Source: Candidatus Doudnabacteria bacterium (GTDB taxonomy: Bacteria > Patescibacteriota > Doudnabacteria > UBA920). From it: a DNA stretch of 38,480 nucleotides. Positions 9,077-27,519 of this stretch are shown piece after piece. Made by a program: the position numbers and the translations under genes. Position 1 is the stretch's first letter; each line of letters opens with the position of its first letter. The notes under the pieces are model-generated. The model was given only the letters and a program-made list of their open reading frames with translations, did not search any database and was not told the origin of the DNA. The stretch is from positions 1 through 38,480 of the forward strand of contig JADZEH010000017.1 of the NCBI GenBank assembly GCA_020850635.1, written 5' to 3'.

Positions 9077-9163
9077 GGCCGGGTGGTGAAATTGGCAGAC
9101 ACGTACGCTTCAGGTGCGTATGATCGCAAGATCGTGAGGGTTCGACCCCCTCCTCGGCCACCA
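9077..9163 (+). tRNA. tRNA-Leu (anticodon CAG)
   Basis: The acceptor GGCCGGG (9077-9083) pairs with CTCGGCC, then A73 and an encoded CCA ending at 9163. The anticodon stem is TACGC/GCGTA around the loop TTCAGGT, giving CAG. A long variable arm (GATCGCAAGATC) and a T-loop TTCGACC are present, so this is a class II leucine tRNA. It starts only 9 nt after the stop codon of the solute-binding protein gene, so it is probably cut out of that transcript. Confidence 0.95.
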
Positions 9164-9182
9164 ATTAGTCTAAGACAAGTCC

Positions 9183-9256
9183 CGACCTTCATAAATTTGA
9201 ATTGCTTTGCAATTCATAGAGGAAGTGCCGACGTAAGTCGGCCTCCTCGGCCACCA
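9183..9256 (+). repeat. tRNA-associated element with duplicated tRNA-Leu 3' end
   Basis: From CCGACCTTCA at 9183 to the CCA at 9256 lies an element shared with the one after tRNA-Glu. It has the conserved block CCGACCTTCA, hairpin A (GAATTGC ttt GCAATTC), the conserved block CATAGAGGAAGTGCCGA, and hairpin B (GCCGAC gtaa GTCGGC). It ends with a 15-nt exact copy (9242-9256, CCTCCTCGGCCACCA) of the tRNA-Leu 3' end at 9149-9163. Function is unknown. It could be an integration footprint or a tRNA-like/processing RNA. Confidence 0.8.
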
Positions 9257-27250: not shown

Positions 27251-27325
27251 GGCGCTATCGTCTAATGGTTAGGACGCCAGGTTTTCATCCTGGTAATCGG
27301 GGTTCGATTCCCCGTAGCGCTACCA
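27251..27325 (+). tRNA. tRNA-Glu (anticodon TTC)
   Basis: Acceptor GGCGCTA pairs with TAGCGCT (G1-U72 wobble), then A73 and an encoded CCA ending at 27325. The D-arm is CGTCTAATGGTTAGGACG, the anticodon arm CCAGG-TTTTCAT-CCTGG gives TTC, and the T-arm is CGGGGTTCGATTCCCCG. The terminator hairpin begins in the ACCA end itself. Confidence 0.96.
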
Positions 27326-27364
27326 AAGAAAATGCATCAGCTTGTCTGGTGCTTTTTCTTTGGT
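27322..27364 (+). terminator. First terminator after tRNA-Glu
   Basis: ACCAAAGAAAA pairs with TTTTTCTTTGGT, with an inner GCATCA/TGGTGC stem (27322-27364). The stem starts with the tRNA's own ACCA. Confidence 0.75.
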
Positions 27365-27401
27365 AAATTAATAGAGAATCGAACTTTCTAAGCATTCGAT
27401 T

Positions 27402-27481
27402 CCGACCTTCAATAATTTGTTTTGCAATTGCAAAACATAGAGGAAGTGCCGAAATCTCATTTCGGCCCCGTAGCGCTACCA
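27402..27481 (+). repeat. tRNA-associated element with duplicated tRNA-Glu 3' end
   Basis: This is the counterpart of the element after tRNA-Leu. It has CCGACCTTCA, hairpin A (GTTTTGC AATT GCAAAAC), CATAGAGGAAGTGCCGA, and hairpin B (GCCGAAAT ctc ATTTCGGC). It ends with an exact 16-nt copy (27466-27481, CCCCGTAGCGCTACCA) of the tRNA-Glu 3' end at 27310-27325. Just upstream (27394-27402) is TTCGATTCC, identical to the tRNA's T-loop region. Confidence 0.8.
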
Positions 27482-27519
27482 ACAAAAGATTCTCACGAAA
27501 ATGGGAATTTTTTGTTGGT
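27478..27519 (+). terminator. Second terminator, after the duplicated tRNA-Glu 3' end
   Basis: ACCAACAAAA...ATTC pairs with GAAT...TTTTTTGTTGGT. As after the true tRNA, the stem begins with ACCA and ends with TGGT, but the sequence between differs. Confidence 0.7.

Follow-up and report, generated by a model that had tools for sequence, protein, structure and literature searches.

Short structured units behind tRNA genes of a Candidatus Doudnabacteria bacterium look like insertions that duplicate the tRNA 3' end

The sequence behind the tRNA-Glu(UUC) gene of a Candidatus Doudnabacteria genome (G000, 868,613 bp) looks like a small tRNA-gene-associated insertion of a new kind, for which no known family was found. 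The window analyzed here, a stretch of 38,480 nucleotides, is contig 18 of this genome. We regard it as probable that such units, which are short (about 90–160 bp), non-coding and devoid of an ORF, are non-autonomous insertion elements that settle at tRNA 3' ends and duplicate the end of the tRNA gene; this estimate covers the insertion and the target duplication, not the enzyme. The core of the window copies, here termed core A, is, as far as sequence comparison tells, one of several unrelated structured cores within one frame, composed of a tRNA, a terminator, an antisense T-arm, the structured core, a copy of the local tRNA 3' end and a second terminator.

The copy behind tRNA-Glu(UUC), one of four in G000, occupies positions 27326-27481 and follows its host gene at 27251..27325 on the forward strand (ARAGORN; Rfam tRNA, 66.8 bits), which is also the strand of all the parts described below. 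From 5' to 3' it begins with a terminator-like hairpin 1 (27323..27363, CCAAAGAAAATGC...TTTTTCTTTGG), which opens with the CCA of the tRNA and includes a terminator-like site at 27334-27352. There follow alpha', an antisense T-loop GAATCGAAC (27376..27384) that is the reverse complement of GTTCGATTC, and alpha, a sense T-loop copy TTCGATTC (27395..27402) placed immediately 5' of the core. Core A (27402..27467) has the order CCGACCTTCAATAATTT-hp1-ATAGAGGAAGT-hp2; its hairpins hp1 (GTTTTGCAATTGCAAAAC, 27419..27436) and hp2 (GCCGAAATCTCATTTCGGC, 27448..27466) are supported by covariation across 13 copies and also fold on their own. The tail CCCCGTAGCGCTACCA (27466..27481) is an exact copy of nt 61-76 of tRNA-Glu, and its CCA opens a terminator-like hairpin 2 (27479..27518). 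Alpha', both terminator-like hairpins and two further genomic copies had escaped an earlier note on this DNA. That note had pointed out that TTCGATTC equals the T-loop of tRNA-Glu; the identity holds, but the string is common to many tRNAs and is not locally specific here. Alpha' is generic in G000 as well, with other tRNAs matching it equally well or better. A protein search for synteny around tRNA-Glu returned one relative only.

The other window copy lies behind tRNA-Leu(CAG) (9077..9163, forward strand; ARAGORN), with core A adjoining at 9182..9243 and a tail CCTCCTCGGCCACCA at 9242..9256, both on the forward strand, the tail repeating nt 62-76 of the tRNA exactly; terminator 1 is absent from this copy and the antisense part is reduced. 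The cores at Glu and Leu reach 90.6 and 86.4 bits with covariance model R1, in the building of which both sequences were used. As had been noted from the letters alone, the two copies share the blocks CCGACCTTCA (at 27402 and 9182) and CATAGAGGAAGTGCCGA (at 27436 and 9215), the latter occurring twice without mismatch in the window, where shuffled sequence would give 0.03 matches even with 3 mismatches allowed. A search of the genome with the 17-nt core block, allowing up to 3 mismatches, gave four true copies, behind Leu(CAG), Glu(UUC), Gly(UCC) and His(GUG); a fifth match was discounted as lying in coding-like sequence.

In every one of these four copies the tail is local, matching its own tRNA over 15–16 nt when compared with the 43 tRNAs of the genome. 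The 16-nt end at tRNA-Glu, described earlier as identical to that tRNA, finds its next best match in Glu(CTC) with 12 nt and at most 7 nt in the rest, and the 15-nt tail at tRNA-Leu matches no other tRNA beyond 7 nt. Ties and near-ties across the four tails are confined to isoacceptors (Gly(GCC), 16 nt; Glu(CTC), 12 nt), other tRNAs reaching at most 8 nt. Whether tails always match the adjacent tRNA had been posed as a test on all copies in the genome, and the answer is four of four. No tail copy was found downstream of the other G000 tRNAs checked.

The earlier note further took the differing hairpins of the two copies, both fully paired (GTTTTGC/GCAAAAC at 27419-27436 and GCCGAAAT/ATTTCGGC at 27448-27466), as a sign of compensatory change. 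Since hp2 has only two exact forms in G000, a wider set of copies was required, and 13 core-A copies from four genomes uphold the claim. In an alignment fitted to the covariance model, so that the figures lean towards structure, 98.6% of pair cells hold standard pairs against 73.1% in shuffles, none of 500 shuffles reaches the observed score, and 8 of the 12 hairpin pairs vary on both sides. Shifting the partner by one column destroys the signal. A CUUC/GAAG pairing across hp1 was rejected, being broken in the AAC copies, and low G-U content was dropped as a mark of DNA over RNA folding because tRNA acceptor stems are similar in this respect. Derivation of core A from a tRNA body was likewise set aside, with alignment scores equal to those of shuffles.

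Nine of the 13 copies come from three other genomes, where covariance models R1 and R2 located them, and all stand behind tRNAs: Trp, Ser and His in G023; Lys(UUU), Lys(CUU) and two positions in a tRNA-His array in G007; and Glu(CTC) and Cys in G145. Within the order the distribution is patchy (3 of 49 genomes). Among 380 genomes of the phylum, searched with strict filters that lose weak matches, core A was found nowhere else, bar one match apparently in coding sequence. A match in G070 (L039) and two viral matches (L093 and L112) were judged to be chance: L039 and L112 are apparently coding, and L093 gained no score from the model.

The frame extends beyond core A. The tRNA genes of G007, G145 and G008, the last of which lacks core A, were scanned for downstream copies of their own 3' ends. 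With G000 included, 31 of 171 tRNA genes have an exact copy of 12 nt or more no further than 350 bp downstream (4/43 in G000, 11/37 in G007, 8/48 in G145 and 8/43 in G008), where a simple estimate of chance gives about 0.02 in all. Many of the 31 share the frame, and some lack the full set of parts. A second core, B, is found in G007 at Gly(GCC), Gly(UCC), Trp, Glu(CTC), Lys and His, and a third, C, in G145 at Ala, Trp, Ile, Asp, Arg, Pro, Gly and Lys; members of B and of C have shared folded shapes, closed by a T-arm-like stem. At tRNA-His of G007, one unit reads alpha'-B-tail and the next alpha'-B-alpha-A-tail, from which A and B emerge as modules of one frame. The frame was also seen at a tRNA-Gly of G038, a member of a different family within the order. 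In G070, which belongs to another class of the phylum, it surrounds a further core at the Glu, Gln and His tRNAs.

Two observations were made in passing on these loci. The further core of G070 (L248, L251, L275) ends in ATAGCGGTGAGAGCACTTGTGCT before the tail and resembles a tRNA D-arm, with an alignment score that only equals the best of 30 shuffles. A dispersed palindromic repeat, CTTCGCTAAAGCTACG..., occurs behind tRNAs of G007 and G008 (L126, L173, L181), at times inside tail-bearing units.

Several observations on the placement of the units speak for insertion with target duplication. The same core type stands at different tRNAs, and different core types stand at the same tRNA in different genomes: the Gly(GCC) orthologues are empty in G000, hold core B in G007, another core in G008 and core C in G145. 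Empty sites, which the earlier note had proposed to look for, exist for the window copy too, the orthologous Glu(UUC) genes of G007 and G008 being without the element in a genus-level comparison. In G007, Lys(UUU) and Lys(CUU) have closely similar cores with different flanks and tails, each after its own tRNA. Tandem accretion is apparent at tRNA-His of the same genome, where three units follow one another and some second and third copies have decayed tails, and at its Glu(CTC), where a stretch of about 69 nt comprising the terminator, antisense arm and core start returns behind the tail with a single mismatch. The earlier note had left two readings of the tail, target duplication or a required match; the data agree with this pair, and duplication at insertion is favoured over an absolute need to match because two copies of the tRNA-His array have partly decayed tails.

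The source of the tail can be narrowed further. Units of G145 that stand behind tRNA genes without an encoded CCA have tails without CCA, which argues that the tail is a copy of the gene and not of the mature tRNA. Reverse transcription of the tail from mature tRNA was rejected on these CCA-less tails together with the lack of a reverse transcriptase (PF00078) in the five genomes searched. As a general observation on G145, many of its tRNA loci, for example L092 and L065, lack an encoded CCA and others have it.

Taken as insertions, each copy would have entered at the T-arm or 3' end of a tRNA gene and duplicated the tRNA end, and the tRNA would stay intact because two copies of its 3' end bound the element. 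The conserved hairpins could serve as the recognition site of a mobilising activity, acting as RNA or as single-stranded DNA, and the elements themselves would be non-autonomous. A bolder version, which we consider doubtful, would see an RNA-based mobile superfamily across Patescibacteria, in which a structured and perhaps catalytic RNA recognises tRNA genes through its 5' antisense T-arm, has its 3' end copied from the target on insertion, and in this way can colonise any tRNA gene while carrying no integrase itself. Several findings sit uneasily with insertion. The antisense T-arm is locally specific in some genomes only, which plain target duplication does not explain; the RNA-like folds conserved in cores B and C would also suit a cellular RNA function; and some tail copies of G007 and G008 without an antisense T-arm resemble simple partial duplications of the tRNA.

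The strongest competitor, still unlikely in our judgment, is a resident tRNA-linked regulatory or processing RNA: a transcribed unit whose tail would pair with the 5' acceptor strand and whose alpha' would pair with the T-arm, controlling folding, maturation or turnover of the tRNA, with selection keeping the match. Structures that are conserved and fold well, a terminator-like hairpin on either side of the unit and tails that are local everywhere would all suit such a role, as would the locally matched alpha' of several G145 and G007 units (Ala, Arg, Pro and His; 13–15 nt against 11–12 nt for the best other tRNA). Against it, a unit is missing from the majority of tRNAs in these genomes and often from orthologous tRNAs as well, the same place is filled by different, unrelated cores, and tails have decayed in some copies; between terminator 1 and the core, no promoter-like site was found above chance. 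Should the units nevertheless regulate their tRNAs, they would represent a new kind of tRNA-gene-linked control.

Quite improbable is the notion of phage or plasmid scars, with the tail as the attR of a lost tyrosine-integrase element and the cores as its ends. Phages, ICEs and plasmids that use tyrosine integrases do resemble the units in targeting the tRNA 3' end, leaving the tRNA intact, bearing a direct repeat at the far border and accreting in tandem; the direct repeat of the tRNA 3' end, 15–16 nt in all four G000 copies, is the classic mark of such elements, and the arrays at tRNA-His of G007 fit as well. The units differ in having no integrase gene or other ORF, a length of about 100–200 bp and an antisense T-arm, and in being uniformly short, of similar size, with intact and covarying cores, unlike random remnants. 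An attP site is expected to match one tRNA, whereas core A is found at Leu, Glu, Gly, His, Trp, Ser, Lys and Cys, with tails that are local. No phage, plasmid or viral-contig match for the units was obtained. G000, G023 and G145 each encode a single tyrosine recombinase, strongly closest to Xer models yet under the strict XerC/XerD cut-offs (NCBIfam); G007 has two, and the one that was typed shows a weak Xer likeness (NCBIfam).

Least probable of all, and by our estimate very much so, is neutral slippage or template switching, by which replication errors at palindromes would duplicate tRNA 3' ends and quasi-palindrome correction would keep inverted and direct copies alike: terminators and T-arms are indeed palindromic and simple tail duplications without an antisense T-arm exist (G007 Ile and Thr, G008 Met and Leu), which may be plain partial tRNA duplications, but such errors cannot place a conserved core of 60–130 nt behind many different tRNAs.

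The units were also compared with other known systems. Casposons, driven by a Cas1-type casposase, insert preferentially at tRNA gene 3' ends and generate target duplications of 14–15 bp; the 14-bp duplication of the published M. mazei casposon takes in no more than the final 4 bp of the tRNA (PMC6977970). Here, by contrast, the repeat falls entirely within the tRNA gene and stops at its 3' end, and the bases beyond differ in the four G000 copies. MITE-type non-autonomous transposons are similarly short, non-coding, hairpin-rich and multi-copy; the units differ in standing strictly behind tRNA genes and in having several unrelated cores per frame, and no autonomous parent was found. Group I introns and GIY-YIG homing elements are known to target tRNAs, as with the tRNA-His intron of G000 and G007, and GIY-YIG ORFs are concentrated near tRNA genes in the genomes studied here; the units stand outside the tRNA, have no ORF and gave no Rfam match to a group I catalytic core, RF00028 matching only the separate tRNA-His intron. 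HDV-like theta ribozymes, reported next to phage tRNAs (PMC10879173), are likewise small structured RNA elements associated with tRNA genes; the units differ by ending in a tRNA 3' copy and show no HDV-family Rfam match at E<=2. Searched against Rfam 15 at permissive thresholds, the G000 copies, 26 other loci and three 20-kb stretches yielded tRNAs, the group I intron and chance matches only.

Because none of the families compared fits and no description of the units was found in the literature searched, which left subscription papers and preprints aside, the architecture looks new. Target and duplication are those of tRNA-3'-end integrative elements or casposons; the novelty would lie in the absence of a carried enzyme, in one core accepting any tRNA and in a tail rebuilt locally. 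If this is true, uncultured bacteria with genomes near 1 Mb carry abundant non-coding elements that use tRNA genes as universal, non-lethal landing sites, and rebuilding the tRNA end at each site would offer a new means by which essential RNA genes survive an insertion. It would also place several structured RNA families that have no Rfam name in one shared setting.

As for the engine, neither a classical integrase nor a resident reverse transcriptase is a likely driver, and no mobilising gene was found within the units or linked to them. The only lead is an association: of the 20 small GIY-YIG ORFs in G000, G007, G145 and G008, 10 have a tRNA gene on the same strand within 300 bp, with a rough binomial P of ~4e-9 for which only the tRNAs near ORFs were entered for G000 and G145. 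In G007, one such ORF (L126, reverse strand, C2:155740-155952) stands directly behind tRNA-Pro, with a 13-nt copy of that gene's 3' end on its far side; its sole NCBIfam relative is a group I intron endonuclease model, below the cut-off. On this proximity, tRNA-adjacent GIY-YIG endonucleases are a candidate mobiliser.

Two further loci deserve mention. In G000, a small GIY-YIG ORF (C25:85697-85921, L202) is found 52 bp behind tRNA-Glu(CUC), without a tail copy. The tRNA-His(GUG) genes of G000 (L004 1089-1397, C1) and G007 (L046) are interrupted in the anticodon loop region by a group I intron (RF00028; 91.8 and 59.2 bits, respectively), and ARAGORN misses the gene. At the G000 locus, a T appears to precede position 1 and position 73 appears to be G, where a G-1:C73 pair is usual.
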